Shown piece after piece: positions 3,407 through 28,786 of a stretch of 64,000 nt of DNA (position 1 is its first letter; every line of letters starts with the position of its first letter). This DNA comes from Seison nebaliae (Eukaryota; Rotifera; Pararotatoria; Seisonacea; Seisonidae): NCBI GenBank assembly GCA_023231475.1, contig JALJEE010001170.1, positions 1 to 64,000 of the forward strand, read 5' to 3'. Position numbers and translations under genes: made by a program. The notes under the pieces were generated by a model that saw only the letters and a list, made by a program, of their open reading frames with translations, was not told where the DNA came from and did no database searches.

Positions 3407-3479
3407 AGGTTCGAGCGAGAATTGAACTCGCGACCTTCTGCGTGTGAAGCAGACGTGATAACCACTACACCACCGAACC
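3407..3479 (-). tRNA. tRNA-Val (anticodon CAC)
   Basis: Read on the minus strand this folds into a full cloverleaf. The acceptor is GGTTCGG with TCGAACC (one G-U). The D arm contains GTGTAGTGGTTATCAC. The anticodon stem TCTGC/GCAGA encloses loop TTCACAC with anticodon CAC. The variable part is AGGTC, and the T arm is GCGAG-TTCAATT-CTCGC. A and B box promoter sequences are intact, and there is no intron. The discriminator base reads T rather than the usual A of tRNA-Val, a small oddity. It decodes GUG valine codons. Confidence 0.93.
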
Positions 3480-4441: not shown

Positions 4442-5413
4442 ATGATGGGAGATACGTTTGATCGTTTAAGCTGGCAGAAATGTTGGAATAATTGGTTCAA
4501 CGAGCACCGACTTAATATCGAAAATAAAACGCCATCAATTATTTATAATAATCACCAAATTTTAGCAATAAACAAACCGTCAACAATGCCAATTTATCCG
4601 GGGAATAATAAACTGAATGACAAGAAATCATTAGTTGAATGGATGATGTCAAATCCACTTCTTCGTCAACATCAGAATCATTCTTTGGATTTCAAATTTT
4701 TTACGTGTCACCGATTAGATATTTGTACTAGCGGAATTATTTTGGTGCCGCTAAACAAAGATGTTTGTCGGACGATTTCAACTTCTTTAAATAACAAAGA
4801 GAAATGTGAGAAATGTTATGATGCCATTGTTTTTGGTCATTTGAACGAAAGAGAATTATTAAAAAAGAATTCTTGTGAAATAAATCGGATAAACGATAAT
4901 GAATTTCTAATAACTCATCAACAAGTACGTGATCCAATTCATCGATATAAATGGAAGATTTATGATGAGAACGATGATGGATATTCATCACAATTTATTA
5001 AAGAATCTTTCATGAAAATCCAACAAATCAATCTGATACATCAAATGAAACATTCCATGAATTTATTGAAAGGACGAAATAGACCGAAAACTTGTCAAAC
5101 GATAATATCTTTGATTAAAAAGGGAAATTTAGTGAGATTATATGATAATCATCAATTTGATGTCACATTTGTTCGGTTGAAACCGATCACTGGTCGACAA
5201 CATCAATTGAGAGTGATGTTAAGTGAATTATTAAGACATCCGATCGTGGGCGATGAATTATATGCTGGACGAAATAAATTTGCATTTGGAAGAACATTTC
5301 TTCATGCATCTTCAATTCATTTGAATGGATTAGACAATATCGATAATTTATCACTTAACTCTCCTCCTGATTTCTATTCCACTAATTCAATTTCGATAAT
5401 TGAACAGAAATAA
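4442..5413 (+). CDS. RluA-family RNA pseudouridine synthase (RPUSD-like)
   Basis: Single-exon gene of about 323 residues. Enzymes of this family isomerise uridine to pseudouridine in rRNA, tRNA or mRNA. Seen in the sequence: an IIYNNHQILAINKPS segment (the entry strand of the catalytic fold), the signature HRLDICTSG holding the catalytic Asp, and downstream TGRQHQLRVM with HPIVGDELYA, the RluA C-terminal motif. There is no S4 domain. A GTG-initiated extension to 4397 is open, but a splice acceptor ends at 4396, so I chose the first ATG of the tandem ATG pair at 4442. The acceptor could instead join an upstream exon. The insert between the two motif blocks (about residues 130-230) is long and poorly conserved. 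The RNA target and compartment cannot be told; it is closest to the RPUSD1/2-type animal enzymes by recollection. Confidence 0.85.
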   Translation: MMGDTFDRLSWQKCWNNWFNEHRLNIENKTPSIIYNNHQILAINKPSTMPIYPGNNKLNDKKSLVEWMMSNPLLRQHQNHSLDFKFFTCHRLDICTSGIILVPLNKDVCRTISTSLNNKEKCEKCYDAIVFGHLNERELLKKNSCEINRINDNEFLITHQQVRDPIHRYKWKIYDENDDGYSSQFIKESFMKIQQINLIHQMKHSMNLLKGRNRPKTCQTIISLIKKGNLVRLYDNHQFDVTFVRLKPITGRQHQLRVMLSELLRHPIVGDELYAGRNKFAFGRTFLHASSIHLNGLDNIDNLSLNSPPDFYSTNSISIIEQK

Positions 5414-6392: not shown

Positions 6393-6526
6393 TGTATATT
6401 TTCAAACAAAAGATAAAAAATATTTAAGAATACCGAAAATTTCACTTATTTTACAGAGACATCTTTTAAAATTATTTTTTCCTTCTCTAAAGATCTTAAA
6501 TTACTAATTTCATTTCAGTAATTGTT

Positions 6527-7195
6527 ATGACAGCTAAATTGACTTATTGGGATGGACGAGGACGTGCCGAAATTATTCGATTGGCATTAGCAGCAGCTGA
6601 TGTAAAATGGACTGAGGATACATTGTTAGAACCAGAACAACTGGATAATTTACGGAAAAGTGAAAAACTGATGTTTCAACAAGTGCCATTATTAGAAATA
6701 GACGGACTAAATTTAGTTCAAAGTGACGCAATTGTTCGATATATTTGTGGAAAATATGGAATGTTGGCCAAGACATCAGTCGAAGCTGTCCAGCAAGATA
6801 TGATTTGCAATGGAGCTATCGATGCTTATGGTTCTCTATTGAAGATAGGATTCGATCCAAAAGCATATGAAGACGCTCTTCCTTTATTGAAGAATCGATT
6901 TCTTCCAATTTTTGAAAAGTTATTGTTGAAGAATAATTTCGACGATGAGAAAAACCGTTTTATTGTCGGCAACAAAATGACGATTGCTGATCTCTACGTT
7001 TTTCTAGTATTGCATGTCATCTATGATTATGATAAAGAATATTATGGATTCAATGTCTTGAAAAAATATTACAAGACATTAAGAAATGATACAAAATTAG
7101 CTGGTTATTTAAATAGTGAAAAGGCGAAGAAAGCGAATGACGAAAAATATATGGACGCAGTTGAGAAAGTTTTACGTATGAAAATTCGCGCTTAA
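6527..7195 (+). CDS. glutathione S-transferase, alpha-like cytosolic class
   Basis: Single exon, 222 residues, the usual length for alpha-class enzymes. It conjugates glutathione to electrophiles in the cytosol. The N-terminal thioredoxin-like domain (about residues 1-80) starts TAKLTYWDGRGRAEIIRL, with the catalytic Tyr near residue 7. It carries FQQVPLLEIDG with the cis-proline of the glutathione site, and LVQSDAIVRYI with the glutamate-contacting QS pair. The helical C-terminal domain follows, including NKMTIADLYVF, the N-capping box motif of GSTs. The motif wording is closest to the alpha class, with sigma as the alternative. A T-rich splice acceptor (CATTTCAG) ends at 6518, eight bases before the ATG, so the leader is either spliced or trans-spliced. 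Confidence 0.93.
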   Translation: MTAKLTYWDGRGRAEIIRLALAAADVKWTEDTLLEPEQLDNLRKSEKLMFQQVPLLEIDGLNLVQSDAIVRYICGKYGMLAKTSVEAVQQDMICNGAIDAYGSLLKIGFDPKAYEDALPLLKNRFLPIFEKLLLKNNFDDEKNRFIVGNKMTIADLYVFLVLHVIYDYDKEYYGFNVLKKYYKTLRNDTKLAGYLNSEKAKKANDEKYMDAVEKVLRMKIRA

Positions 7196-7476: not shown

Positions 7477-10400
7477 TTAGAGATCAAAGGGAAGAATGGA
7501 GGTGAACCGTTCCAAAATGTGCACGTATTTATTTAACACTTTTTGTAGCCATTTAGTATCTGACGTAAAATAAGTTAACCATAAATACGGTTCCATAACC
7601 TGATGTGCCAAATTATGAGAATTAACCATTGCATAATTTGACACCTGAATATTATTTATTAAAATTGAACCAGAGGTAGTTAATGGGGCAAAAGCAGAAG
7701 ATAAATCGATTTCTTCAATTCCAACTATTATGCCATTGGAAATATCTTGTGACTCTGTGTAAAGAATCGTATCATTCAGTTTTATGGTATCAGCTTGAGT
7801 ATATATTCCGTTAATCTTCAATAGATGTTTTGGTGATATGATAATGGTTTTCAAATGGATCTGATTCGTCAATCGGAAAGAAATATTAAGATATTTGAAA
7901 CGATTTTCCACATCGTAATGGAGATATCCTATGAATTTGGTTGTTGCAACTTTATTCTCTTCATTCAAATATAAAACATCTTCACCAAATTTTAATCGAT
8001 CAATTGATTCACTCGATCCATTAGCCAATGTAGCATATGAAGTGTTAGGGAAACATGATTTCATTTTATCGTTCACTATCTCACAATAATAACCGACAGT
8101 GCCATCTTTACAGAAACAAAATCCGGCAAAATTTTCATTATCCGAAACACAAGTCGCTCCATTTTTACATTTATTCGGTTTACAAAAATTTCGAACTATC
8201 GTTTCACACGATTGACCGGTATATCCTGAACGACAAACACATCTTCTTGTTTGAGCGTTACATGTACCCTGGGAAAATAAGTTGATTTATATTAGAAAAA
8301 TAATCATCACAAACTCCATTCAAACAATTGTTACTTAAACAGAAAGTATCAACTTCGCAATATCGTCCAGAGAAATTGGGTAGACATTTACAATAAGCTT
8401 TATTCAATTAATTCAAATAGTTAATGAATTATTAAGGAGAACCTGATGCTTCATCGTTCTCGATACATTCTCCATTATTCACACAATTTCGACCATCGAT
8501 ACAATAGTCACGTTGACAGAATCTTCCGAAATAGTTTTTCGGACAGAAACATTGATTAATTAATCCAACTTAAATAAAATAAAGAGAGAATATACGTATA
8601 TAGAAGGAAAAAATGGTGAAACTAACAATCGGTTGGTATATTGGCTACACACATTCCACTGTTCCGACAGGGATTTGACGCACAAAAATCATTATTTGTA
8701 GGTTGGGTAGTGAAAGGATTTATTGGAGTTCCATTTAAATTTTGTTCGCATAAAGTGGATGTGAATTGAGAAGTGCAAACACAGACGAAAGAATTGATCG
8801 ACGTAGTAATACAAGTTCCACCATTCTTGCACGGAACAGAATTACACGGTGACATTTGATTTTCACAAAATATTCCAGTAAATCCCATTTGACACACACA
8901 CACGAATTCACTACCTGAAATTATAGAAATTTCGATAAGAATTCTCTAAATCGATTCATTCTAATTTAAATTAACCTAAGGGTGTACAAATACCTTGGTT
9001 TTGGCATGGTTTTGAACGACATGGATCGTTCAACAAATTTTCACAATTCTTTCCCGTATACAACGCAGTGCATCGACAAAAATATCCGTTTACTATTTAA
9101 TTTAAAAATTTCGTCGAATCGAACAGGAAATCGAACTTGCAGGAAAACACATTCCCCCATTACGACATGGTTGGCTTAGACAAGTAACTAGAACATCGGG
9201 TGTTGAAAGAGAAAAAGGATAAGTCGTCGTTATCGGAGGAGCGATTGATGTTTGTGTTTCTACATTTGTTTCACATCTTTCTCCACTAAATGGTGCTAAG
9301 CACATACAATGGAAATTAACACCGTCTGATGAAAAAGAAGAATTATTTAATGGAAATAGATCGTCATCACGATAACCATAAGTTGTACAGATACCATTAT
9401 TTAAACAAGGATTAATCGTACATCCATTTCCGATAAATGATGTTTCACATCGTTGGCCAGTAAACGTGTTTGGACAAATACAAATGTATCGATCATAAGC
9501 TAGAATTTTTGTGATAAAATCAGTTGAATGGTACTTATTATTTAACCTATAATGACGCAAGTACCTTGATTCTTACATGGTGTACTAGCACAAACGTTCA
9601 TTTGACTTTGTATTCCACATGTCAATCCAGTAAAATTAGGATTACATTTACAAACAAATCCAGCATCTTGACAAATATGTTTGTAGAGGAATTTCTCGTG
9701 AAGAGTGACTAACTTGGATTATTGAAACATGTTCCCCCATTCATACAAGGATTACTCATACAACTGAAATTAGTTGTTAAAAATGTTGAACAGTTTTTCC
9801 CCGTATACTGTGCGGAACATCGACAAACGTAATCGTTTAATGTCGGATAACATAATCCACCATTCTCACATGGATTCTGTTGACAGATTGTAATTCGTGG
9901 CTTCTGACAGAAGTTTCCTTCGAAGTTTATAGGACAAACACAATAGAAGTTGAACGCTGTTAATATGGAATAATTATATGTATTTAACAATATAGTAAAC
10001 ATAAATCATACCTGATGAATAACAACTACCACCATTTAAGCAAGGAAAACTTTCACATGGATTGATCGGTTTCAATGGAGTATCACAATTATAGCCCGTA
10101 AACGGTCCTTTGCAAAAACATGTATATTTCCCGACTTAATTAGAAAAGTTTCTTGTTGTATTTTAAAGGAAAAAGACATAAATGAAGTTAACCTGTTTCT
10201 ACACAGACTCCATCATTCTTGCATGGTAAAGATCGACATACTTCTTTTAAACGATTATGTTCACAGTTTAAACCGTTATATGGATAATTGCACGAACAGA
10301 AATAATTCGATCCTAATCAATTAAACAATTATTATATGTTCAAATTAAAGAAATTATAAAAATGTTCCACCATTATTATGACAAATTCCATCGTTTAAAC

Positions 10401-11413
10401 ATGGATGTGATACGCAGGCACCACGATTAATCTCTTCGCAATATTTCCCAATAAAGCCTTTTGGACAAACGCATTCAAAACCGGATTGAGCTATATTAAA
10501 ATTGTATTAAATTCGTCAAATTAATAAAGAAAAATTTTATAAATCATTAATTAAATAAAAAAACTCAATAGACAAATTCCTCCATTTCGACAGGGTTCGT
10601 TTCGACAAACACCATTATAATCCTTTATCTCACATGAATGTCCATTATATATTGGGGGACATAAACATATGTATCCTCCAAAAACTACAAAATATATTAA
10701 AATAATTTTCTAATTGTGAAGGTAGTTAAAATAAACCTGTTGGATAGCAAGTTCCTGCTTTCACACAAGGATTACTGTAACACGAAGTAATTAATGTTTC
10801 GCAATGCCGTCCAGTATAATTTGGAGGACAATAACACGTTAATTCTGAAGAAGACGAAAAAATGAATATTGAACAAAGAAGAAAAAAGGAAGAGAAAAAT
10901 AACTGTTACATACTCCACCATTCTTACAATATGAGTCACATCCTCTTGTCTCAAAGATGTTGGTCAGTTTTTCACATTTAATCCCATGAAACAATTCCGA
11001 ACATTGACATTCTCTTCTAAAAACTAGAAAATGAGATTAATAATATTAGATTAAGAAGAAATGGTAAAATTAACGATGTTCATTGTAAACACATCTTCCA
11101 CCATTCAAACATCCGTCCAATGTACAATCATAATACTTATCTGGATATTTACGTAATAATTCGAAATCAGTTAAATTGCAATCATGAACTAAAGAGAATT
11201 TAACATGAATTTAGGATAAAACAAAAGAGAACTTTCACAGTCAATATCGAAATTCAATCGATAATTTTGAGTTTTATTCCAGACATTTTTATGGACATCT
11301 TTCAAAGTCACATCAGTTTCAGTTTGATTAATCCCAAATGATGGAATGGATATTTGGGATTGACAAATGACGGAATAATTGTGTAAAATCAAAACGATGA
11401 AAAGGAGATACAT
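7477..11413 (-). CDS. gene A: secreted multi-EGF protein with C-terminal Hedgehog-type Hint domain
   Basis: A multi-exon gene read on the minus strand. The start at 11413 gives a signal peptide ([18 protein letters not shown]); an in-frame ATG at 11458 would lengthen the n-region. After a unique linker with N-glycosylation sites come about 17 EGF modules of the pattern PCxNGGxC...CxCxxxFxGxxC, mostly one per exon, separated by introns of roughly 45-65 bases. Some modules share exons, such as 9709-10002 and 9102-9500. The C-terminal Hint/Hog domain is at 7480-8055: it opens with Cys in KSCFPN and continues through [14 protein letters not shown] and [13 protein letters not shown]. The position of the second conserved Cys (SCYA in Hedgehog) reads SNYA. 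It has no Hedge domain, so it is not Hedgehog itself. It is predicted to be secreted and to self-cleave. It lies divergent from gene B. Exact exon ends in the EGF part are approximate. Confidence 0.8.
7480..8055 (-). other. Hint (Hog) autoprocessing domain of gene A
   Basis: About 192 residues. The predicted cleavage nucleophile is the Cys at 8055. The conserved His is in SPKHLL (Ser replaces the usual Thr of TxxH). The hydrophobic block [17 protein letters not shown] and SHNLAHQ match the Hedgehog C-terminal domain. The residue before Cys is Ser, whereas Hedgehog has Gly. Confidence 0.85.
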
Positions 11414-11458
11414 GGGAACAATTTGTAAAAATTGATTCTCCAATTTGAGTGAGAACAT

Positions 11459-12246
11459 CAGCTGATTGCGGAAGAGAATTTCCTGCTTGTTTATAGAAGT
11501 GTCTGGTTCATCTATGAAATTTCGTCATTTGTGGTTCATCATCTCACATATCGACGATGGGAAAGTTTCGTTCAATTCAACAAGTTTCTTTAATTCCACT
11601 TTACTGGGCAAAAAGTTGACATAAAGTGAAATAGTCAGAACGAAATGACGAAGAGTAAAGAAATAGGTCGAACCATTGATGGATTGGATGATTGCTTTCA
11701 CACATCGTCTTCTGTTCTTCATTTCTGTTGATAATCGACTATATTGTCTGTCCGTTTGGTATTGTGGGAGTTAGTGTGAGTAACGGAAGTGAGAGACGTT
11801 GCATAAATTGATTATTCCCTAAACTTTCCCCAATCATACTTCCCACCGTCATATGGTTTGAGTTAAACTGAAAGAAGATTTTTGAATAATTTTCAATGAA
11901 TGAATTTTTAATTTTTTTCTTCTTCCGAAAACTCCTCCTTCCACATTGATGTAATAATCATTCATATTATTTGAGAAACAAACAATGAATTGATTATTTT
12001 CGTACTGAAAACATATTGACATTGTCTCAAACTTCATCTGAACGATTGGGAAGAGGATGGATGTAGAAGGTAACACATACACACATCTTATCATTATACG
12101 ACTTTGGTGTCTTATGTATTTTATCTTCAATTCATTATCTATTGTTATTTTCGTCAGGTTCTTTTTCAACTCATTCCATTCATTCCATAAATTTTTGGAA
12201 CGAAAAATTTCCTGTTTCTTTGTTCATCTTCATTCAGAGGAATAAA
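11459..12246. promoter_or_regulatory. shared divergent promoter region of genes A and B
   Basis: About 0.8 kb between the oppositely oriented starts of genes A and B, with short overlapping open frames but no recognised protein. Its position implies that it holds the promoters of both genes. A T-rich AG acceptor ends at 12237, nine bases before the gene B ATG. No specific factor sites are claimed. Confidence 0.4.
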
Positions 12247-15200
12247 ATGAATTTTTATTTAACTATCATTCTCATACAATTCGTCCATTGTTAGTATTCT
12301 TGACTATGGAACGATCTTCAACTAATCAGATTCCTTCACTTATAATTCCTACTTCTTTACGAGATATCATTCCAAACGAATCAAACGAAATGTACCAGGA
12401 GGTGATCGGACAGGTCCTTGCAGCAATCCAAATGCATGTGTCGCAGGTACATGTGAAGATTATCAATATCAGAATCAATATATTTGTCATTGCATCATAT
12501 TAGTTCGTATGAGAAATTAGAAAATAAGTAAATTTTTAAATTAAAAAAATTTTCTCAAAATTTTTAGGGAAAAATCGGAACTAAATGTAGCCAACCATGT
12601 CCGCTCAATTCGAGTGGTCAACGACGTTGTCGTCCATGTGACAGTAATCCTTGTTTTGGAAGTGCCGTTTGCATTGATGTTGATAGCAGTAATTATCGTT
12701 GTGTATGTCCTCCTTGGAGAGTGAACAATAAATGTTCAACTATCATTGGAAAAGTTTGTTCAATCAATCCCTGTCAACATGGCAAATGTAATCCAAAAGG
12801 TTTCATCTTCATTTCCTTTTTATCTTCCCTCAATCTTTTCTTTTTTTAATGTTCATCTTTTCTTCAGGTATTTCTTATTCTTGTAGCTGTTCAAGTGGTT
12901 GGACTGGGAAGAATTGTGACACAAGATTAGGTCCACCATGTTCATCGAATCCATGTCAAAATGGTGGTCGATGTATTGAACAAAGTTCCTCCAAAAAGTT
13001 TTTTGAAAAAAAATTTTTTATTTGATTTTCAGGTGGATATCGATATACTTGTCAATGTATAAATAAATATTTTGGGAATAATTGTCAATATCCGTTCGGA
13101 ACAATTACTCCATGTTCAAAGAAACCATGCCTGAATGAAGGAACATGTATTTCTGATGGTTATCAGATTCATTGAACAAATTGCAAAAAGAATAAAACTT
13201 TAAATTTTATTGAACAAATTAATAGATCCCAAAACTTACAGATGTGAATGTATTGAAACGTTTGGTGGGCCGCATTGTGAAATAAGTTTTGGGCAGTTTA
13301 AATGCAAGGACAAACCATGTCAAAACGGTGGTCGATGTTTTCCGATAAGTTCCATTGTTTTTCGTTGAATTATTATCTTTCTATTAGAAATTAGCCAAAT
13401 CGGACGTCATTTGTTATTGCAAGCAGTATTATATCGGGAAATATTGCGAGATTTTGGATCTTCCTCTTGATGCGTGTCGAACATTTCCATGTCTCAATAA
13501 GGGGGTATGTATACCAAATGGAAATGAATTTCGATGTGAATGTCCTGCCGGTTAGAAGAAGTTTCTGAATACGAAAGAAAACACTTCTACTCTTTTTATA
13601 GGTTATACTGGAAGTAGATGTGAATTAACTGCCTTTACCATAACTCCAAAACCAACCGGTGTTTGTTTATCCAATCCCTGCAAGAATAACGGTGCTTGTA
13701 TAGTGAAAGGTTACGACATTTCATGATAATTCAAATTAGAATGAACATTATTAATTTTAGGTAATACATTTGAATGTATCTGTCCTAGTGGATTCGTGGG
13801 GAATTTGTGTGAAACAAAAGCAAATTATGGAGGTCAATGTCGACCAAATCCTTGTCAACATAGTGGAGTATGTTATCCATATAGTGGTGGATCTGGTAAT
13901 TTGTTTCGATGTGAATGTGGGGCGTTATGGTCGGGGAAATTTTGTGAAACTTTTATTACTGAACTAACTGCATGTACCTCAAATCCATGTCGAAATAAAG
14001 GGAAGTGTGAAGTAGATTGTTAGTTGAAAATTTTCACTTTCCTCGACTCTAAATTTTCCAGCTATTTTAGGATATATCTGCAGATGCCCTTTCCTCTACA
14101 CTGGTCGCAATTGTGAAATCTTTCGAACAAATACTGGTTTCTGTCTAAGTGATCCATGTCAGAATGGTGGTATTTGTTTGGAAAATATTCCATTGGCTAA
14201 TGATCGTTAAGAAAATTTGAATATTTAGGAAATTTAATTATTTTTAATTACTTTTTAATTATTTTAGGCTCAAGAACAATTAGTCGATGTATTTGTAAGA
14301 ATAAAAATTTTTCAGGTTTCTTCTGCGAAACGAAAGGTTGCGTTGCTGGGAAAGTTTGTCAAAATGGTGGGGAATGTGTCACGTTTTCCGATGGAAAACG
14401 TTAATTTTATTTTTAATTCGAACTTTTCAATAACTTCTTTTAGGAGAATGTAATTGCATCAATGGTTTTAGTGGACCTCTTTGTACTGACTATAATCTTT
14501 GTCTTAAAGTGAAATGTCAAAATGGAGTTGGATATTTGAAAAAATTAAAATATATTTCAATTTCTTTTAGGCTACATGTTATAACGGTGCTTGTGATTGC
14601 GTAGCTGGTTTCACCGGGACACTATGTGACAAAATCGATGAAAAATTTTGTCAAGATCCCGCTGTTTGTAAAAATGGAGGTTCATGTGAAAAACCAAATA
14701 GACGAGCAAATATTCCTGGAAAATGTCGGTTAGTCATTCCCTTTTTCAATTTTTAACTTATTAAATTTTAAAACTGAATTATATTCTGTTCATTAGATGT
14801 CTACCTGGCTATACGGGAAGTTATTGCGACAAGAATTTAAATGGGAAAAATTGTTTCTCTCCTGAAACCTCAACTATTATGCTAGAAAATGGTGAGAGGG
14901 AATTATTGAAGCATCTACAAACTGGTGATAAATTGATAGGAAATAATGAATTTATTGGTTGGATTCATTTCGATGTGAATTCATCAAATTCACAAAATTA
15001 TTTGAGAATATTGGTCGAAGATGGATTTGTTGATATTTCTTCGAAACATTTAATAAAGAAAAGTGATTGTTTGAATTGTGGAAGTGAATTCGTTTTCGCT
15101 GAGAAATTGGAACGATCTCATTATCTGATAACGTCCAATGGAGAGAAGAAGAAGATAGATAAGATTGAAATTGTTGAACATTATGGAGCTCTGGCACCAT

Positions 15201-15496
15201 TGACAACGGATGGAATAATTTACGTGAATGATATAGAGTCGTCATGTTATGCTTTATATGATTCTCATAAGATATCGAACATTTTATTCTCACCGATTCG
15301 CTCCGTTTATAAAGTGAGTGGAGTTAATTTACTTAAAGGAAATCATATAATCGACCGAATGACATCATTTGTTAGTGGAATGGATGTTTTGGGTAAGACT
15401 TCAAACCAATTCACGTCAATCTATGACGATGAGAATGTGTCATGGATGGCGAAAATATTTCTAATGTTTTATGATCTTTCTTCTTCCTTCTATTAA
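12247..15496 (+). CDS. gene B: secreted multi-EGF protein with C-terminal Hint domain
   Basis: Exon 1 is 12247-12289 (signal peptide MNFYLTIILIQFVH). A 40-base intron (GTTAGT...CAG) joins in phase 1 to 12330. The next exon encodes GGDRTGPCSNPNACVAGTCEDYQYQNQYICHC, a cysteine module shared with genes C, D and E. About 13 EGF modules follow, mostly split by short GTT-AG introns. The final EGFs repeat the order seen in genes A, D and E: one ending CLENIPLANDR, then CVAGKVCQNGGEC, CLKVKCQNG, FCQDPAVCKNGGSC and CLPGYTGSYC. The Hint domain at 14852-15493 opens NCFSPETST and contains GWIHFDV, SSKHLIKK, GALAPLTTDGIIYVND and SSCYALYDSH. It is predicted to be secreted and self-cleaving. A direct splice acceptor lies upstream of the start. 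Internal exon ends are approximate; the ends and the Hint frame are firm. Confidence 0.8.
14852..15493 (+). other. Hint (Hog) autoprocessing domain of gene B
   Basis: About 214 residues. Candidate nucleophile is the Cys at 14852 (context GKN-C-FSP). The His is in SSKHL. APLTTDG and the second Cys in SSCYA are conserved. Asn, not Gly, precedes the nucleophile. Confidence 0.85.
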
Positions 15497-16101
15497 AAAG
15501 ATTGTCATTCATCTCATTTTTCTTTTGTTCGATATTTGGAATGTATTGTGTCTAATGAGAAGATTGAGACGATTCAGTTTCAGTCGCATGTTTCTTTCGA
15601 TTCCCAATTTTCTTTCTTTCTTTATCGCCATAGTTATTTAGTTATCATTCGAAATTAGGTGGTACCACCATCCAATGGTGGGTGTATAAGAAACACTTGT
15701 TTCACACAACATGCTTACCAAACACCTAAAAACTTTTACATAATTCATCAAATAGAATGGAACAATTAAAATTACACTTATAATTTTCATAACAATATAT
15801 CTCCTTTCTCACATATTCATTCCACACATTACATGGAATGATAACGGAGACAATAGATAGATACGTGATCAATAATTCGATTGTTTCAACCACGCATCCC
15901 TACTATCTTAAATACGACTTTTTGACACAAATCGTTCTTACTGATTCAATTCAGTGAATAAAGTTCATTACCTCCTCCAAACTCATGAAGTTTCCTTTAA
16001 TCGTCCCTTTAAAAACATCGATCTAATTCGATACTCCCATAATTTCTTAAATCATTTCATTCTCTTCTAATTTATTATACTTCAAAAAGAAATTTTAGAT
16101 A
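15497..16101. other. intergenic between genes B and C
   Basis: AT-rich spacer with no recognised gene. It ends in AAATTTTAG at 16098, a splice acceptor three bases before the gene C ATG. Confidence 0.5.
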
Positions 16102-17493
16102 ATGTTCAGTTTTTCAATCTCCATCATCACAATATGTATCTTAGAATACTCAATCGTATTAGCTAACTTACCTGGAAGTGACACAAGTGGACCTTGTGCT
16201 GATCAAACAGCTTGTCGTCATGGAATGTGTGAAAACTATAACAATCGACCATTATGCCATTGTAAATTGAGAGTTTATTTTATTTGTACTTTTTTTTAAA
16301 TATTTTTTTAAAGCGAATTTCTGGCGATCAATGTGATCGATTATGTTTCGGGTCTACTTGTTCACCTTGTAGTTCTAATCCATGTTATGGTGGGGGACAA
16401 TGTCAGAACATAAATAATAATAATGATTTCAAATGCGTTTGTACGAACGGAAGTCGCAAGAAGGATTGTAAGACAGTTGGATCACGTTCTTCTTTTCCAC
16501 CTTTCCAAACGACCAACAATAATAATAATAATAATAATGCGATAACGACGTGCTATCCAAATCCGTGTCTAAACGGAGGAGTGTGTCGTAGTTACAATTC
16601 GGGAAATCGTTTAAATTATTTCCGTCTTCTCTTATCAATTGTATTCCCTTTATAGAATTAATCATTCAATGTTCTTGTGCTAATGGATTTGTTGGGGTCA
16701 ATTGCGAAAGAAGACAACAACAAACCAATCCAACATTTCCGTCTTTGACACCTTCCCGATATCCGAATACTCAATATCCAAATACTCAATATCCAAATAC
16801 TCGATATCCAAATACTCGATATCCAAATACACAGAATCCGAATACTCGATATCCTCCAACCTTGACAACGGCTTTTGGTACAACTGCGTCATTCTCACAA
16901 AATCCTTGTTTATCGATGCCATGTCAGAATGGCGGTTTATGTAACGGATTCTTTTTTAATTGTTCCTTTTAAATTATTCGAATTCGTCTAATAATATATT
17001 TATTTTAGATAAATCTAATTATGTTTGTTCATGTCCACCCAATTTCCATGGACTTAATTGCGAACAACGAGGTTCGGGCAGAGTAGGCGATCTGTGTGAT
17101 ACGGAGCCATGCGAAAATGGAGGTCGATGTTTATCGCAAAGTTAAAATTATTTTGAGGAATTATTATTTAATTAATTAATATTATTATTTTTTCGATTAG
17201 ATAATATCAGAACTTGTATCTGTCCGCCAACATTCACCGGTCGATCATGTGAACAAATGGTTAGTGTAACTCAGCAACCATCGCCAACGACGAGTCCGAC
17301 ATTACCACCGAATTCGAGAACTACAAGCAAATCCGGTAGTCAGACATCAATTTACTTACTTCCGACTAAATGTGATGGAAGTGTCTGTCAAAATGGAGGA
17401 ACTTGTTATGATGTGGCAAAGGATTCGACTTACTGTCATTGTCTTCGAGGCTTCTATGGAATTCGTTGTGAGAATGATTTGAGTCGAAGGTAA
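16102..17493 (+). CDS. gene C: secreted multi-EGF paralogue lacking the Hint domain
   Basis: Starts with a signal peptide ([21 protein letters not shown]) and the family cysteine module [35 protein letters not shown] intron joins it to [24 protein letters not shown]. About five EGF modules follow. The protein carries low-complexity linkers: an Asn run from (AAT)n near 16517-16540, a YPNT[Q/R] pentapeptide array at about 16757-16855, and a Ser/Thr/Pro stretch near 17270-17345. The last EGF ([12 protein letters not shown]...YGIRCEN) is followed by LSRR and a stop. The terminal EGF block and Hint domain of the neighbours are absent. A GTAAAT donor-like site overlaps the stop codon (CGAAG/GTAAAT), but the next possible exon closes within about 15 codons, so the gene looks truncated at its 3' end. 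Confidence 0.72.
16757..16855 (+). repeat. 15-base minisatellite encoding YPNT[Q/R] repeats in gene C
   Basis: About six to seven copies of a 15-base unit (consensus TATCCAAATACTCRA) encoding Tyr-Pro-Asn-Thr-Gln/Arg. Copies differ at single bases. It lies in the linker between two EGF modules and could act as an O-glycosylated spacer (inference). Confidence 0.8.
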
Positions 17494-18138
17494 ATTGATT
17501 GAAGAATATTAATATTTTTTTTCGATCAGAATTTTAATAAAAAACTTCAATTACTTTCACATACACGTAATTTGATTAATATCATATGTTATGATTGGAA
17601 ATGGATCTCTTCGTAAGATAATTCATTTTCATTTCATCTTTAACAAGAAGTAGGAAACGAAATTGATTGAGAGGAATTGATTGGAAATTAATCTATAAAA
17701 TAAAGATTGGAGGATTGCCAGTTCATTATGGAGACGTGACTTCTAACTTTGTCATCACAACTGAATATCATCATTAATATTTTCACGTTCTTCAAATTTC
17801 CGTACATCGACGTATGGGACATGTTCGTTCACATATATCTAATGATTAGTAACAATCTTTGAATGAACTTCGACATCCTCCATACTCCCATCGAATAACG
17901 ACCATCGTTAATCGAAGTTAAATAAAACTCCTTCTATATTGCCATCTCCATTTGATACGTTAATTATGATAATCATTCCAACTCAACAGTAAATAGTTTA
18001 TCAAATATTCATATTTGTAATACATTTAGCATACTGCTGTTGGAAATAATTCTTGTTTTTAATATTTCTTCCCATCTTCACTTTCATCTTTAAGTCCACT
18101 TCTTCAAACTTTCACTCAAAATCATTTGTCAGAAAACA
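17494..18138. other. intergenic between genes C and D
   Basis: No Hint-coding remnant was found here, although gene C would be expected to continue into this stretch. It ends in TTTGTCAG at 18132, an acceptor six bases before the gene D ATG. Confidence 0.5.
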
Positions 18139-21100
18139 ATGGAAGTTAATCGTCTCATTCTCCTAGTTTTCATATATGGAATCCACGGTTCGTTGAATCT
18201 CCTTTATGTAACTAATTAATACATTTCCAAAGGATATTATGATGACGTGTTCTATCGGACTAATGCACCAAATAGTGATCGGACGGGTGTTTGTGCCGAT
18301 GTAAATAAATGTCGATATGGACGTTGTGAGAATATCGGAACGAACGATTTCGTCTGTCATTGCATTCAGCCAGTTAAAATTAAACTTCTCTTTCATTTCT
18401 TAAATTCGTCTATTCTTAGGGTATCGGTGGAAAGAATTGTGATAGATTATGTCGAACTAAACCTTGTGGTCCATGTGAAAGTAATCCATGTTTAGGAGGC
18501 GGAAACTGTATTCCAAGTGGTACAGCATTCACTTGTATTTGTCCCCCGAATAGAACTGGACAGAAATGTGAAACGATCACTGGTGCTGTCCCGATTACTC
18601 AATTTCCACCAGTAACTTCTGGTGTAACACAAGCTCAATTTTGTCAACCAAATCCATGTTTAAACAGTGGACAATGTATAAGTAACGGTTTTGTTCACTT
18701 TATTAAAGGATCGAGTTCAGGAATTTCGTTTTTAGGGTTAAGTTTCTATTGCATCTGTAAGAACGGATTTACAGGACAAAGATGTGAAAAAGCTGGGGCT
18801 ATTCCTACATCACCAACTGCAAATGCTTGTGCTCAACAACCATGTCAAAATAATGGTCAATGTATTCCTAACGGTTTAATTTACTTTTATTCAGTTTTTC
18901 TTTTGAATATTTGCTCATTGAATAGGTGCTGCTTTTACATGTAATTGTGTGAACGGCTATTCTGGTTTTGTTTGCCAAAATCCACCCACACCTGCAACAC
19001 AACCACCAGCTTCCAATGCATGCCTTCAAAATCCTTGTCAAAATAATGGACAATGTGTCCCAAATGGTCATTTTTAAATTAATAAAAATGAATTTTTCAA
19101 ATTTTTTTTAGGTGCCTCCTTCAAATGTAACTGCATTAATGGATATAGCGGATTTGTCTGTCAAAATACTCCTCAACCAGGAACGGTTCCAGTACAATTA
19201 ACTTCTCCAGCACCGACTACTGGACCTTGTATGTCAGGTCCTTGTAAAAATGGAGGAACTTGTTCAGATATAAGTTTCATATTCTAATCGAATATTTTAA
19301 CTAAAGAAATTTGGATAAATTGTAAAGATAATATTATATTCGCTTGTAGTTGTGTACCAGGCACGTATGGTGTAACTTGTGAAAATGGCTCACCAGTTGT
19401 CAGTCCTTGTAATCCGAATCCTTGCAAGAATAATGGAGTGTGTACAACTAATGGTTATTTTTCATAAAATTCAATGAATAGAATTTATAAATGCAAATAT
19501 ATTCATCCTTCTCTAATTGAAAGGAATCACACCCGTCTGTAGTTGCATAGCTGGATTTGCTGGTCAGTTCTGCGAAAAACAAGGTGCGCCCACCGGTCCT
19601 TGTCTATCTCAGCCATGCCGAAATGGAGGACAATGTCGAAATACAAGTGAACAATTTCTTTTTCATAATAATAATCGTTTTACAATTATTTTTAGTGGAT
19701 ACCGGATATATCTGTTCATGTGCCGGTACATTTTCGGGCAGGAACTGTGAATCTGATTTACGATCTATGAATTCATTCTGCACATCAGATCCTTGTCAAC
19801 ATAACGGTGTTTGTATTTCAAATGTTCCCACTGATTTCGGTTAGTTAATTTAATTTATTCAAATTAATTAAACATTCATCAATGAATAATCGTTAATTAT
19901 ACTTAAATAGGTCCTGTCAATCTGTGTTTATGTCCTGGTGATTATGGAGGTGAATATTGCCAAAAATTTGGATGTGTAAATAATCAACCTTGTCAAAACG
20001 GAGGAAGATGTTATACAATAAATGGAATGGGTTAAAAAATTATTCACCAACACGTAAATTAATTAGAATTATTTTATTAGATAATTGTAATTGTTCGGCA
20101 CCTTTCACTGGCGATAATTGTGAAAGTATTGATGCTTGTACCAATCGTGTTTGTAACAATGGTGGAACATGTATCGATGGTCAATGTTATTGTCTACCAG
20201 GATATTCAGGATTTGCTTGCGAATATATAGTTCCAGATTTTTGTCGTAAAAGTCCTTGTAAGAGTGGAGGTTAAATTGAAAAAAAAAAGAAATTTATTTT
20301 TCAATTGTCTTTCTCTTCATAAACAGCTACTTGTGTCCAAGAATATCCAAGTCCAGGACGCTGCGTGTTGGTAAATTATTTCGAAATTTAATTAATTAGT
20401 AATCTTAATTTTATCATCAAAAAATTTTTATAAATACTCGTGCTATTGATAATTGAATGATAATATCAAGATTGTTTAGGTCAAATTTTTTTTAATTAGG
20501 ATAAATCCCAGTTGAGAGGATAAATTTAAAATGATAATTTTTTTATTGTCATATGACAATAAAATAGTTTACTTGAAGAAAAATGAAAAAAATTTAATAT
20601 TTCTTTATTCAATTTGTTTCAGATGTCCAGGAAATGTTTTCGGTGCTCTGTGTGATAATAATCCGTGTTTGCCCAACCCTTGTAAGAATCGAGGAAAATG
20701 TATGGTGAATGGATTTGGGACATATCGATGTGTCTGCGGAAGAATTTACAAGGGAGCAAATTGTCAAAGTTTTGAGATTTATTTAAACTGTTCTAACTCA
20801 AATTCAAACTTTAAGTAACCGAATGTTTCCCATCGAATTCAGTTGTCACATTAGCAGACGGTAGTGAGAAACCGATGGAACAATTGGAAATTAATGATGA
20901 ATTATTATCATCAAATGGAGAAAGTACGACGTTAATTGGATGGTTACATCGTCAACCAAATAAATTGATTGAGAATGAGTATATTAAATTATTCGTGGAA
21001 TTGAATGATAATAGAACTTCGACAATAACGGCAACATCTCATCACTTAATCCAAACACCAAATGGATTTGAATATATGAAAAATTTAGAGATCAATGATT

Positions 21101-21420
21101 ATGTGATAGATGAGAAAGGAGAAAATGTTCGAATTATTTCTAAAGAAATTTCCCAATACGAAATAGGAGCAATGGCACCGTTGACATCATCCGGAACTTT
21201 GGTTGTCAATAATATTTGTACTTCATCATATGCAATTGTTAAATCACATCAACTTGCTCATTGGACATTATGGCCGATACGTGTCATTCATCAATTTCTT
21301 CCTTCCTTCTTGGAAGCATCGAACACTTCAAGAATTGACAATTACACGAACTATTTGTTGAGGACCATGGACGGAATTGGCAAATACTTTCCATCTCTTG
21401 TCGATTCGATTCTATATTAG
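18139..21420 (+). CDS. gene D: secreted multi-EGF protein with C-terminal Hint domain
   Basis: Exon 1 encodes the signal peptide MEVNRLILLVFIYGIHG. A 45-base GTT-AG intron leads to YYDDVFYRTNAPNSDRTGVCADVNKCRYGRCENIGTNDFVCHC (the family cysteine module), then GIGGKNCDRLCRTKPCGPCESNPC. About 14 EGF modules follow. Two adjacent ones near 18920-19170 are near-copies (CNCVNGYSGFVCQN and CNCINGYSGFVCQN) separated by Pro/Thr-rich linkers. The terminal EGF order matches genes B and E, including CISNVPTDFG, CVNNQPCQNGGRC, ACTNRVCNNGGTC, DFCRKSPCKSGG and NNPCLPNPCKNRGKC. The final intron joins NCQ to ITECFPSNS, which opens the Hint domain at 20824-21417 (VTLADGSEKPMEQL, GWLHRQP, TATSHHLIQT, AMAPLTSSGTLVVNN, SSYAIVKSHQLAHW). 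Predicted to be secreted and self-cleaving. Confidence 0.8.
20824..21417 (+). other. Hint (Hog) autoprocessing domain of gene D
   Basis: About 198 residues and the most Hedgehog-like of the four, with VTLADGSEKPMEQLEIND, GWLHRQ, a T-S-H-H version of the TxxH motif and APLTSSGTLVVNN. Glu precedes the candidate nucleophile Cys. The second Cys position (SCYA) reads SSYA. Confidence 0.88.
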
Positions 21421-22156
21421 AATTGACTACTGTTGAATAAGTCGAAAGTATTACATAGTTGAAAAGTGATATAATTATTATTATATTTTCTTCTCAAAAT
21501 TTCACGTTCTTATTATTCTCATCATCGTCAATTACGTGATATCTCAACAATAAAATTTAAAGAATTCTTCAATTTCTTTCCGTAAAATACTATTTAAGGG
21601 AAAACTTTACTTCATCAATTCTTTTAAGATAGATCAAAATTTAATAAAATTTGTAAAGTACTAATTCGAGGGAAATTTTTTCCATGAAAATTGGTTCAAA
21701 ATTTTTTCCATGAAAAGTCGTTCGAAATTGTATTCCATTTTCTCGTATGTGAATCGTGAACGATTCTTGTCAGAATGGAAATAATCTAGAAGAGTTTTAA
21801 AAATTTTGGAGTTGTCAAAACTTTGAGGTATGAAGTGGATCAAGTTACATATGAAAGTAATAGTTCCCTTATTCTGATATTGGAACAGTCCTTGTTGTGA
21901 TGTAACTAAATATGGAATGATGAATAGTTCCAATGGATTATGAAGACACAAGTTAAAAGAGGAACTGACAGTTGATGCCAATAAAATCTTTTATTCACAA
22001 AATATCGTTTGAATAGTAGAAAATTTCTTTAAACGATTTTCACTCAATTTTTCCTCCCATTTCCTTTCCATTTCATCCTATTTATAAAATTTCTTGTTCC
22101 ATTTTCAAATCTTTTTACATTCTCTCCATAATTTCTTCGTATTAGACAGAATTATT
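21421..22156. other. intergenic between genes D and E
   Basis: The spacer carries the minus-strand open frame listed at 21661-21960 and ends in a TTAGACAG acceptor at 22149, seven bases before the gene E start. Confidence 0.4.
21661..21960 (-). CDS. hypothetical minus-strand exon or small ORF
   Basis: An open frame of about 100 codons with protein-like composition (for example NPLELFIIPYLV, FICNLIHFIPQSFDNSKIF and YEKMEYNFERLFMEKIL) and a TAA stop. It has no in-frame ATG start; upstream on its strand is CTGTCAG, a possible acceptor. It could be the last exon of an unrecognised gene. No family was recognised. The adjacent direct repeat TTTTTTCCATGAAAA lies in its 3' part. Confidence 0.25.
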   Translation of the reverse strand, partial: SFNLCLHNPLELFIIPYLVTSQQGLFQYQNKGTITFICNLIHFIPQSFDNSKIFKTLLDYFHSDKNRSRFTYEKMEYNFERLFMEKILNQFSWKKFPSN

Positions 22157-25100
22157 ATGATTCTTATTTTGTTACTTGCAATTTCTGCGATAAAAGGTTC
22201 AACTGATTTAATAATAATATCGTTAAATAGGAGAAAAAATGATTTTTAGGAGAATTAGTTTCAAGACGAATTCCTTATTATCAACAAGCATGGAATAAGG
22301 TCATTCCAAGTCAATGTTGGTAATATGTATTTGTTTGATAAATCAACTTCTAATTCTTCGCTTTTATCAAGTACCAGATCCAGTGAAACGTGATAATTCT
22401 ATTGACAGTGACACGACTGGAGCATGTGCCAATCCATCAACATGTCGATATGGGAAATGTGAAGATATTGGAAATGGTGATTTCATATGTCATTGTACAT
22501 TTCCTGTTATTTTCTTCTTTATAAATGTTTTGATCAATTTTAAAATGTTTTCAGAGAATTGTCGGGAAGAAATGTGACAAATTATGTCCAACTGAATTTT
22601 GTGCTCCTTGTGACCAGAATCCATGTTATGGCAATGCCCAATGCATCAACAAAGGAAACGATTACCAATGTGTATGTCCAGCAGGACGTAGTGGAAAAAA
22701 TTGTCAACTTGGCGGTTCAGTTATTCCTGCAACGACTCTACTTCCCAGTAGTCCATGTCAACCAAGTCCATGTCTGAACGGAGGAAATTGTTATCCGAAT
22801 GGAGCGAAATATTTTTGTCAATGTGTCAACGGTTTCTCCGGAACGAATTGTGAACAAGGAGGTTCATCATCGACACCTTGCCAACCAAATCCATGTCTAA
22901 ATGGAGGAAATTGTTATCCAAATGGAGCGAAATTTTTTTGTCAATGTGTTAACGGTTTCTCAGGAACGAAGTGTGAACAAGGAGGTTCCACATCAAATCC
23001 ATGTCAACCAAATCCATGTTTGAATGGAGGACAATGTTATCCGAGTGGAACGAATGCTATATGCCAATGTTCAGGTTTATACACAGGAACACGATGTGAG
23101 CAAATGTTGAGTGTTACTGCTGGTCCAACTGATCCTTGTTTAAGTAATCCATGTGTTAATGGAGGAAGTTGTTACAATACAGGTTTTAAATTTTTTAAAA
23201 CTGATTTTATTATCTATTCCAAAAAATGTTAGGTGGCACTTTTATTTGTGCATGTCTTCAAGGTTTTCAAGGAACGAGATGTGAATCATCATCAATGATT
23301 CCGACAACTCCCTCACAATCAGCAGCATGTGGAGCAGGTGCATGTGAAGCAGGTCAAACGTGCGAACAAATTGGTTAAATGAATATTATTTATTTCTAAT
23401 TATTAATTTATTTCTTCAATTTTTTTCGTAGGAGTGAATTTTTTCTGTTGTCAAAGTAATTTACAAAATTGCGTACAACCGAAAGCATCGGGAATTAATT
23501 CTTGCTCAACATTACCATGTCTGAATGGTGGCACTTGTATTCAAGATGGTTTGATTATAGATAAACTAATATCATCTTTTCATTTGAATCCATTTTTTAT
23601 TAGTTCAAAATGATTATCGATGTGTTTGTAATGGAGAATTTACGGGAAGAAATTGTCAAACTAAAGAATCCCAATTATCTAATTTCTGTTCATCCAGTCC
23701 GTGTCAACATGGAAGTGTATGTTTAGAGAATGTTCCTACAGAATTCGGTTTCAATATTTAAACAATTAAATGAATACAAAATAATTTATAAATGTTTTTA
23801 GGTCCAACAAATGTCTGTGTTTGTGCTATAGGATATGGTGGTGAATTCTGTGAGAGATATGGATGTACCGACGGTTTACCTTGTTACAATAATGGACGTT
23901 GTATTGCAGTATCAGGACAGAAACGTTAATTTATCATAATTTTATTTAAATTTCCTTTATATCCATTTAGCTTATTGTAATTGCACGGGAAATTTTGTTG
24001 GAGATCATTGTGATCAAATTGATCAATGTATTGGTAGAACTTGTGCGAATGGAGTTAGAATTATATAAATCTACATATTCCAATTAAACTCTCCAATTTT
24101 AGGGTAACTGTGTTAATGGAGCATGTATCTGTTTACCATCTTATACAGGATTCAGTTGTGAATATGTTATGCGAGATTTCTGCAAGAAGAAACCGTGTAA
24201 AAGTGGAGGTTCATATAAGTTTGTTATCTATGATCTTTTAATAATGATTTCTCTCCAAAAATAATTTTCAAAAACAAAATTTTAATTTTTTTGACCAAAT
24301 ATGAAAATATGAAAAAAAAAACAATCTTTTAATTAACAAATTCGAAGGTACATGTATCCAGAGTGCACCAACTGAACCGGGTTTTTGTAAATGTCCTACC
24401 GGCATCTATGGATTGCTGTGTGACAACAATCCTTGTTTACCGAATCCGTGTAAGAATTTAGGAAAGTGTATAATTAGTGGATTTAATTCATATAAATGTA
24501 AATGTGGTTCGATTTACAAAGGAAAGAATTGTCAAAGTTGGAAAATTTTCTGGTTGTCATTTCTCTTTAATTTGTAAATCGACAGTAACCGAATGTTTCC
24601 CATCGACGGCAATGGTGATGGTAGAGGATGGAATGGAAAGACGAATAGATGAATTGAAGATCAATGACCATGTTTATTCACCTAGCACCGGAGGTAGTAC
24701 AAGAATAATTGGTTGGTTGCATTATGAGAAGAATATCGAGCAAGTGGATTACATTCAATTGATGACGGTGAATCATACAATCCTTTTATCTCCAAAGCAT
24801 TTGATTGCGACGAAGAAGATATCGAATGGTAACTACGAATATCAAGCAGCGAATGAATTAGTAGAGAATAGAGATCGAATAATAGGAAATGAGATTGATG
24901 AAGTAATCGAAATAAAGAAGTTGGTGAAGGAGACAGGTGCATTTGCTCCTCTAACAGAATCTGGTGATTTGATGGTAGATGGAATAATCGTGTCATGTTA
25001 CTCATTAGTATATTCTCACAAATTAGCACATATGGCATTGGCACCGGCACGTTGGTGGTATCAATTAAGTGGTAATACATTGATTGATGGATCAGTGACG

Positions 25101-25190
25101 AAAGAACGGTTGCCATCATATGCGGAAGCATTGTTGACAGGAGTGATGACACTCCCAATAACAATCTCCTCCAATATTGTCAATTATTAA
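22157..25190 (+). CDS. gene E: secreted multi-EGF protein with C-terminal Hint domain
   Basis: Signal peptide MILILLLAISAIKG, then two short GTT-AG introns and the family cysteine module (DSDTTGACANPSTCRYGKCEDIGNGDFICHC; then RIVGKKCDKLCPTEFCAPCDQNPC). About 14 EGF modules follow. Three of them (22753-23101) are a recent 123-base tandem array within one exon. One module is atypical (CGAGACEAGQTCEQIGVNFFCC). The terminal EGF block matches gene D closely: CLENVPTEFG, CTDGLPCYNNGRC, QCIGRTCANG, DFCKKKPCKSGG and NNPCLPNPCKNLGKC. The last intron joins NCQ to ITECFPST, the start of the Hint domain at 24594-25187 (GWLHYEK, LLSPKHLIA, GAFAPLTESGDLMVDG, SCYSLVYSHKLAHM). Predicted to be secreted and self-cleaving. 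The final intron happens to remain open in frame. Confidence 0.8.
22753..23101 (+). repeat. three-copy 123-base EGF tandem repeat in gene E
   Basis: Copies start at 22753, 22876 and 22999. The first two are nearly identical across the whole unit, while the third has diverged in its second half. Each unit is 41 codons, one EGF plus a Gly/Ser linker, showing that EGF number grows by in-exon duplication. Confidence 0.85.
24594..25187 (+). other. Hint (Hog) autoprocessing domain of gene E
   Basis: About 198 residues. The nucleophile candidate is in ITE-C-FPS. The His is in SPKHLI, the hydrophobic block is GAFAPLTESGDLMVDG, and the second Cys is conserved in VSCYS. Glu precedes the nucleophile. 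Confidence 0.88.
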
Positions 25191-27735: not shown

Positions 27736-27967
27736 TTTATCTCAATTCAAATACAACCAATTGTATAATTAGAAAATATTTTTATTTCAATTTTTTGTCT
27801 TTTCAAATTTTTTGTCTTTACTCCAAATTCCATTCATTTTGTCTCGTCCATACAAATTCCATCATATCAACTCACAATATTCTCTTGAGAGTAAATCAAA
27901 AAAGAAACACATTTTTTATCTGTCTTTCCAAATCTCAATAAATTGAAAAATTCTCTTTATATAAAGA

Positions 27968-28786
27968 ATGTCGAAAGTTTATAGAATTATTCTCGTTCGT
28001 CATGGCGAATCAGTTTACAATAAAGAAAATAGATTTTGTGGTTGGCATGATGCTGAATTATCAGAACGTGGAATAAATGAAGCGAAACAAGCAGGTAAAT
28101 GGATGAAGGAGAAGAAGATCGATTTCGACTATGCTTTCACCTCCGTTCTCACCAGAGCCATCAAAACTTTATATTATATTCAAGATGGTCTCAATCTACA
28201 TTGGGTACCGGTTGTCCGAGATTATCGATTAAATGAAAGAATGTATGGAGGTTTACAAGGACTCAATAAATCGGAAACAGCCGCCAAACATGGAGAAGCT
28301 CAAGTAAAAATTTGGCGACGCGCTTATGATGTTCCCCCACCTGTAATGGATGATAAACATCCAGATCTTCCAACGAAAGATCCTCGATATGCCTCTCTCA
28401 ATCAAAAGGTTCTACCCAAAACCGAATGTTTGAAAGATACCGTCGAACGATTCTTACCAGCTTGGAAAGAATTAATTGTTCCAAAAATTAAAGTTTTATT
28501 ATTCTTAAATTAATTTTATTATATTATAATAATTATTTTAATTCAAATTTATTAGGAAGGAAAGAAAGTGATCATTGCGGCACATGGTAACAGTTTAAGA
28601 GCACTTGTCAAATATTTGGATAATATCGGAGATAATGAGATTGTCGAGTTGAATATTCCTACTGGCATTCCACTCATCTACGAATTGGACGCCAATCTCA
28701 AACCCATCAAACATTATTATCTCGCCGATGAGGCTCAAGTGAAAGCGGCCTTGGACAAAGTCGCCGCACAAGGCAAAGCCAAATAA
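27968..28786 (+). CDS. 2,3-bisphosphoglycerate-dependent phosphoglycerate mutase
   Basis: Two exons, 27968-28492 and 28556-28786, with a 63-base GTT-TAG intron, giving 251 residues (usual size 249-254). It interconverts 3- and 2-phosphoglycerate in cytosolic glycolysis. The phospho-acceptor His sits in IILVRHGES near residue 12. [13 protein letters not shown] contains substrate-binding residues, [14 protein letters not shown] contains the catalytic Glu, and [14 protein letters not shown] contains the second His. The exon join restores [15 protein letters not shown] exactly as in the family. The C-terminal tail ends [14 protein letters not shown]. Start at the ATG following ATATAAAG. Confidence 0.96.

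Follow-up and report, generated by a model that had tools for sequence, protein, structure and literature searches.

We identified five genes for EGF-repeat proteins, A to E, at positions 7477-25190 of the window, 64,000 nucleotides of a contig of the tiny marine rotifer Seison nebaliae, in agreement with the positions given by the first-pass annotation. Gene A (7477-11413, minus strand) has 16 exons and encodes a 1035-aa protein with 17 EGF modules and a Hint domain. The other genes lie on the plus strand: gene B (12247-15496; 14 exons, 843 aa) with 13 EGF modules and a Hint domain, gene C (16102-17493; 5 exons, 398 aa) with six EGF modules, gene D (18139-21420; 13 exons, 812 aa) with 13 EGF modules and a Hint domain, both recognised by Pfam, and gene E (22157-25190; 12 exons, 791 aa) with 12 EGF modules and a Hint domain. 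Gene E matches the S. nebaliae NCBI protein SNEBB_005785 exactly, over all 791 aa; this external check covers E, and A, B, C and D are our own gene models.

These EGF counts come from a relaxed six-cysteine pattern; a stricter one gives 16 modules in A, 13 in B, 6 in C and 11 in E. An earlier estimate of about 13-17 modules in the Hint-bearing genes fits A, B and D, but gene E has 12 and the range is thus 12-17. Matches to PF00008 are found in the whole proteins of C, D and E, in single exons of A, and in two further EGF-Hint proteins encoded elsewhere in the genome, on contigs C215 and C827. The order of EGF modules is more collinear than in shuffled arrays for D-E and B-D (0 of 1000 shuffles reach the observed value), B-E (5), A-E (7) and A-B (21). 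Collinearity is not clear for A-D, where 99 of 1000 shuffles reach the observed value.

Gene C is an EGF-only paralogue. Its N-terminal module is common to B, D and E, and a Pfam scan of the whole protein returned no Hint match. A candidate Hint remnant downstream of gene C was rejected (best match at E = 0.014, using 12 Seison Hints and Drosophila Hedgehog as 13 query rows).

Signal peptides had been proposed for A, B, D and E. By hydropathy alone, a hydrophobic N-terminal stretch is clear in A, C, E and C827 and weak in B, D and C215. The best N-terminal 19-residue hydropathy means are 1.59 (A), 1.02 (B), 2.01 (C), 1.19 (D) and 1.73 (E). In B and D the most hydrophobic interior stretch scores almost as high (0.90 and 1.16, respectively).

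The Hint domains of A, B, D and E match Pfam PF01079, as anticipated, with scores of 89.4, 87.1, 104.2 and 110.1 bits (cut-off 29.7) and E-values of 1.6e-24 to 1.6e-31 in the four Hint ORFs. These matches are not due to chance. The domain spans 7480-8055 in A (minus strand; an ORF from Cys to stop, with residues audited individually), 14852-15493 in B, 20824-21417 in D and 24594-25187 in E (all plus strand). The corresponding catalytic Cys codons are at 8053-8055, 14852-14854, 20824-20826 and 24594-24596 (Cys594 of E). A His occupies the position of Hedgehog Asp303 in each of the four (7918-7920, 14966-14968, 20947-20949 and 24720-24722). The gene E Hint aligns with Drosophila Hedgehog (6td6) at 5.1e-15, and its TxxH His is encoded at 24798-24800.

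The motifs reported earlier are largely in place. The catalytic Cys and APLT are present in all four domains, as is [S/T]xxH, but with Thr in D only; SHxLAH is intact in A, D and E and weaker in B (SHKISN). The position of Hedgehog Cys400 is Asn in A and Ser in D. Among the EGF-Hint proteins, identity to the E Hint is 25-40%. The reported lack of a Hedge domain was also upheld, with no PF01085 match in the whole proteins of C, D and E, in two exon ORFs of A or in one of B.

One exon of gene A encodes both the final two EGF modules and the Hint domain; in gene B, the Hint domain and the closing part of the last EGF are likewise encoded by one exon. Because the last EGF and the Hint domain lie on one exon in these genes, annotation error does not account for the fusion, and separate EGF and Hint mRNAs are very unlikely for A and B. 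In D and E, a phase-1 intron lies 8 bases ahead of the Hint Cys codon. The linker from the last EGF cysteine to the Hint Cys is 9 (A), 8 (B), 4 (D) and 4 (E) aa.

We identified 12 Hint genes in the Seison genome. Six encode EGF-Hint proteins, four of them in the cluster and one each on C215 and C827, and six encode proteins with a Cys-rich N-terminus. The first-pass annotation had described EGF arrays joined to Hog domains in a locally expanded family; this description holds and now extends beyond the cluster. Outside it, the Pfam scan placed C215, C827, C164, C168, C510a and C186 above the PF01079 cut-off, and a genome profile search did the same for C510b and C58.

All 12 Hints retain Cys258 and His329 (Hedgehog numbering). 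Just five columns are invariant when the 12 rows are aligned, these two among them; the C510b row has a faulty join in that alignment, and mean column identity is 32%. Position 326 is Thr in three and Ser in nine, and position 303 is His in 11 and Asp in C186 only. The cleavage site reads CF in every Hint, and none has a Gly before the Cys; the GCF motif is called highly conserved in a description of Hedgehog (PMC9695228). Position 400 is Ser in three Hints and Asn in one. A Seison Hint profile scored 134.5 bits against full Hedgehog (6td6, with the match over the Hint at 3.7e-38), 115.4 against the D303H chain 6tyy and 111.1 against wild type 1at0.

The Pfam Hint match reaches 204-212 of 213 model positions in D, E, C215, C168 and C186. 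Its extension nearly to the model end in D (206), E (204) and C215 (211) would fit a sterol anchor. The match ends at 179-189 in A and B (188-189), C827, C164 (181) and C510a, and therefore these five give no clear sign of a tail that binds sterol. Features at odds with a plain copy of Hedgehog are the missing Gly, the replaced Cys400 in A and D, and the early end of the match in A and B. The natural His at position 303, in turn, is the residue with which engineered Hedgehog can use sterols: a D303H change in the Drosophila protein is described as keeping structure and activity while widening sterol tolerance (PMC9163320).

In a tree of the 12 Hints and Drosophila Hedgehog, computed with the faulty C510b row, a weakly supported branch (36/48) separates the six EGF-Hints from the rest. 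With that row corrected they need three changes, and thus a single fusion origin is not shown by the Hint tree. C186, the sole Hint with Asp303, is nearest to Hedgehog in both trees (93/91 and 88/90, which is below star level).

We favour, as the probable reading of these sequences, Hog-tailed secreted proteins with an EGF array as cargo, in which the Hint domain would cut and attach to the array a sterol or a comparable adduct. A signal peptide would direct the precursor into the ER. Located 4-9 residues past the last EGF cysteine, the Hint Cys would carry out an N-to-S acyl shift aided by the conserved [S/T]xxH, and a lipid hydroxyl would then resolve the thioester; its likeliest donor is a sterol that the C-terminal tail would present, and His would take part at the Asp303 position. 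Cleavage is predicted to yield a Hog fragment of ~22-24 kDa and a secreted EGF array (12-17 modules) that bears a C-terminal lipid. In this scheme gene C is the family member that would go untagged. Such a protein may act as a membrane-tethered adhesive or signalling EGF protein. The predicted autocatalytic competence of the Hints is well supported, because Cys258 and His329 are strictly conserved. An earlier proposal, a self-cleaving and possibly sterol-anchored ligand family, is supported in part, namely for the competence to cleave; the sterol-anchored ligand is what we infer.

It is also conceivable, though unlikely, that the Hint domain cuts but the adduct is not a sterol, with water or another nucleophile freeing the EGF array, so that the domain would be a maturation device and no anchor. 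The absent Gly and the tails of A, B and C827, which go unrecognised by the end of the Pfam model, are consistent with this reading, and cholesterol addition is described as unclear for nematode Hog proteins too (PMC2362128). Against it, position 303 is polar in all 12 Hints (His in 11, Asp in one), and in Drosophila Hedgehog this residue is described as serving transesterification and as dispensable for DTT-driven cleavage (PMC9163320). Considerably less likely is a Hint domain that is no longer catalytic and instead has a role in the structure or sorting of an EGF protein that stays uncut: divergence among the EGF-Hints and the several changed Hedgehog positions would fit, but the nucleophile and the TxxH His persist in 12 of 12 despite the low mean column identity. 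That the fusion arose from gene prediction, assembly or host contamination is most improbable, since, although the assembly is a draft and the published Seison assembly is described as having needed filtering against host, flatworm and bacterial sequence (PMC8351084), single exons carry EGF and Hint in A and in B, the architecture recurs on C215 and C827, NCBI's prediction for Seison gives an identical E protein, and a conserved EF2 intron of the same window has the cluster's GTT donor.

The Seison EGF-Hint proteins, for which we favour cleavage with a sterol or similar adduct, belong to a known kind, Hog-tailed secreted proteins, and have EGF arrays as cargo. Like Hedgehog (Drosophila Hh, vertebrate SHH), they have a C-terminal Hint/Hog domain with a nucleophilic Cys and TxxH; unlike Hedgehog, they have an EGF array in place of Hedge, and the Seison Hints lack the Gly ahead of the Cys and have His for Asp303 (11 of 12) and Ser for Thr326 (9 of 12). 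Pfam holds nematode Wart- and Ground-type domains. No Wart, Ground or Ground-like N-terminus was found in nine Seison proteins at E <= 0.01, where matches were EGF-type, Hint-type and one that was sub-threshold. A further point of comparison is the Nematostella protein Nv 200640, also called hedgling. As described, it resembles the Seison proteins in joining a Hedgehog-family domain to EGF repeats, but is their reverse, with a Hedge domain, a transmembrane region and no Hog (PMC2362128).

Nematode warthog, groundhog and quahog proteins likewise join a secreted non-Hedge N-terminus to Hog in expanded families, some of whose members are described as lacking Hog, as gene C does (PMC2362128). By the same description, they begin with Wart, Ground and Qua domains, which sets them apart from the Seison EGF arrays, and their motifs K and L differ from those of Hedgehog. 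Lophohog, described in molluscs and Capitella and as enriched in Lottia, is also a spiralian Hog protein with a non-Hedge N-terminus; compared by description only, it has a single unique N-terminal domain whereas the Seison proteins have an EGF array (PMC9695228, PMC5103448). Hoglet of the choanoflagellate Monosiga ovata similarly carries Hog on a recognisable unrelated secreted domain, in this case one described as resembling cellulose-binding domains and not EGF (PMC2362128).

No description of an EGF array with a Hog domain was found in the open-access library searched. Protein database searches each returned one protein, Seison E or C186's own. The search that scored 8000 candidates did not return Seison D or C215, which were query rows of the right length, either because that database lacks them or because its word filter passed them over; these searches are therefore uninformative on other species. 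Our observations suggest that a Hedgehog-type tail cuts, and perhaps lipid-tags, a quite different secreted protein in Seison. By one description, Hedgehog proteins stand alone in becoming covalently ligated to cholesterol (PMC7242414), and another cargo on the same self-cutting domain would make the tail a portable tagging module. The natural His303 makes it possible to ask if the base swap introduced by engineering has a natural counterpart, broader sterol range included.

No Hedge domain (PF01085) was found in the Seison genome at E <= 10, in a search of an incomplete draft with no positive control for the family, and no Patched, Smoothened or SUFU was found in this incomplete assembly. We tentatively entertain the possibility that the Hedgehog signal and its receptor pathway were lost while the tail was kept and multiplied, with a dozen Hog genes putting sterol on two unrelated cargoes (EGF arrays and a Cys-rich domain) through a natural His303 base that perhaps accepts non-cholesterol sterols. 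Should the absence of Hedge, Patched and Smoothened be genuine, what would a lipid-tagged secreted protein do without a Hedgehog receptor?

NPC1, an HMG-CoA reductase and SCAP are present in the genome, in keeping with the favoured reading. We also detected seven MBOAT-family matches on four contigs; no Hedgehog acyltransferase was recognised among them with a family-level model, four of the seven having been given an identity. The best PDB match is DGAT1 for C287 and lysophospholipid acyltransferase 7 for C805 and one C733 match, and the C261 match looks like a sterol acyltransferase.

We identified at least 15 Hint matches on at least eight contigs (counts that are lower bounds) in a profile search of the 36.0 Mb, 846-contig genome assembly of Seison nebaliae, a rotifer of the class Pararotatoria. 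We grouped these matches into 12 Hint genes, six with an EGF array (EGF-Hint) and six with a cysteine-rich N-terminus. The EGF-Hint genes are A, B, D and E, in the cluster at 7477-25190, and one gene each on contigs C215 and C827, named here after their contigs.

The cluster, which also includes the EGF-only paralogue C, was modelled with our own small splice-aware gene finder; for A, B and D we carried the final exon through to the stop of the open reading frame. The resulting proteins have 1035 (A), 843 (B), 398 (C), 812 (D) and 791 (E) residues. After correction, gene E agrees residue for residue with NCBI's 'hypothetical protein SNEBB_005785 [Seison nebaliae]', the only match in our protein search. 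The first-pass annotation had assigned a Hint domain to A, B, D and E, and a Pfam match confirms it in all four. EGF modules are found by Pfam in C, D, E, C215 and C827; those of A and B were counted by cysteine pattern, with Pfam EGF matches in single exons of A. C827 encodes six EGF modules, with 140 EGF-free residues at its N-terminus. In a genome search (18 matches at E ≤ 0.01), gene C's N-terminal module recurs in B, D, E and C215; ten weaker matches, on at least six other contigs, resemble ordinary EGF repeats.

The last EGF cysteine is separated from the Hint cysteine, the predicted nucleophile, by nine residues in A, eight in B, four in D and E, and six in C215, as well as six in C827 under the splice chosen for that model. 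In A and B, Hint and EGF sequence share one exon. A phase-1 intron precedes the Hint cysteine codon by eight bases in D and E and by two in C215 and C827, an arrangement that would fit arrival of the Hint as a shuffled exon. In all seven EGF proteins, every 19-residue hydropathy mean after residue 30 is 1.28 or less; they therefore look soluble, added lipid aside.

The cysteine-rich Hint genes without EGF are loci L016 and L017 (contig C510, genes C510a and C510b), L020 (C186), L021 (C164), L022 (C168) and L023 (C58). Judged by eye, their N-termini look alike, with an approximate pattern of C-x10to12-C ... C-x8to9-C-x7to8-C ... CC. A Pfam scan of C164, C168, C510a and C186 (E ≤ 0.01) returned, beyond Hint, one below-cut-off match only, in C168, and no family for the cysteine-rich N-terminus of these four. 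All six genes are split by an intron shortly after the residue at Drosophila Hedgehog position 303, located from open reading frame ends in C186, C164, C168, C510a and C58 and from a frame break in C510b. In all six EGF-Hints, the Hint itself is free of introns.

Alignment of the 12 Hints to Drosophila Hedgehog shows that Cys258 and His329 are kept in all of them, as two of five invariant columns (12-row alignment, mean column identity 32%). Position T326 is threonine in three and serine in nine; position D303 is histidine in 11 and aspartate in one (C186); position C400 is cysteine in eight, serine in three and asparagine in one. Glycine precedes the Hint cysteine in none of the 12, the C827 residue being splice-dependent. 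A profile of the Seison Hints scores 115.4 bits against structure 6tyy vs 111.1 bits against wild type 1at0. A review (PMC9163320) identifies 6tyy as D303H and states that this variant retains structure and activity and broadens sterol tolerance, that D303A cuts with DTT without completing cholesteroylation, and that cleavage requires C258 and the TxxH residues.

Because both catalytic residues are invariant at a mean column identity of 32%, the alignment argues for live autoprocessing of the Seison Hints. The histidine or aspartate kept at position 303 points to an incoming alcohol being activated, as in Hedgehog. As regards the adduct, caution is called for: the glycine is lacking, position 400 varies, and in A, B and C827 the tail goes unrecognised. 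Cleavage would yield predicted EGF parts, signal peptide included, of 93 (A), 69 (B), 64 (D) and 62 (E) kDa, and predicted Hog parts of 22.0, 24.3, 22.5 and 22.2 kDa, respectively.

Several searches bear on whether Seison has a Hedgehog pathway. PF01085 gives no genome match at E ≤ 0.001 or E ≤ 10, a weak absence because the control genomes gave none either. Wnt (PF00110), included as a control for the detection of secreted ligands split into exons, gave six genome matches, and the exon-split Hints themselves were detected by genome search. The Patched/sterol-sensing models PF02460 and PF12349 match the same three genes only: NPC1 (contig C356, above the NCBIfam cut-off), HMG-CoA reductase (C535, best NCBIfam matches below cut-offs) and SCAP (C146, best PDB match 2.6e-29). 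Dispatched, an SSD protein, would be expected to match in these searches. Across the genome, the Patched model TIGR00918 matches NPC1 alone, far below cut-off. Two Frizzled-family genes favour Frizzled over Smoothened (1.9e-35 vs 4e-12 and 4.8e-27 vs 7.8e-14), and SUFU has no genome match, with positive controls. The Seison genome paper puts genome size at about 46 Mb and GC at 31.9%, and its assembly GA2 lacks 36.5% of metazoan BUSCO genes (PMC8351084); absence claims for Seison are therefore weak. A Hedgehog-free genome carrying a dozen Hog genes is plausible, though not proven. An shh ortholog is described as absent from a chaetognath transcriptome in PMC12852818.

In the open-access literature searched, which takes in few subscription journals, no account of an EGF-Hog protein came up. 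There, 'EGF-like' together with Hint domain and hedgehog refers, in the one paper that has all three, to Notch, and both EGF passages of PMC2362128 concern Nematostella Nv 200640, a protein without Hog. The combination of hedgehog-related and rotifer returns nothing from the same literature. Hedgehog and EGF are never mentioned in the Seison genome paper (PMC8351084), nor are hedgehog, Patched or smoothened in a 2025 study of how rotiferan parasites lost genes.

The 5' splice sites are mostly GTT. Gene E, whose model is NCBI's, has GTT at 11 of 11, and the five cluster models at 52 of 55 donors, a partly circular count with retrained splice scores. With flat scores, GTT accounts for eight of nine donors in 26500-64000 and, at other loci, for only three of seven, plus four GTC. 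An EF2 intron on the minus strand, between 47496 and about 47100, starts GTTAAT. Three of four U1 snRNA genes (loci L060-L063) start with ATACTAAC and one with the canonical ATACTTAC; contig C208 carries the canonical copy and one variant. By the pairing rule, the ATACTAAC change would base-pair with a T as the third intron nucleotide, and splice site and U1 thus seem altered together in Seison.

The window also carries a tRNA-Val gene (anticodon CAC, 3407-3479, minus strand) and neighbour genes at 4364-5413, 6500-7195, 27965-28513, 29320-31874, 33251-36255, 37101-39233 and 45522-47960. These include a pseudouridine synthase and a glutathione S-transferase by Pfam and, by our own reading of open reading frames, a phosphoglycerate mutase, a DIS3-like exonuclease, Tudor-SN, a long-loop GPCR and EF2.
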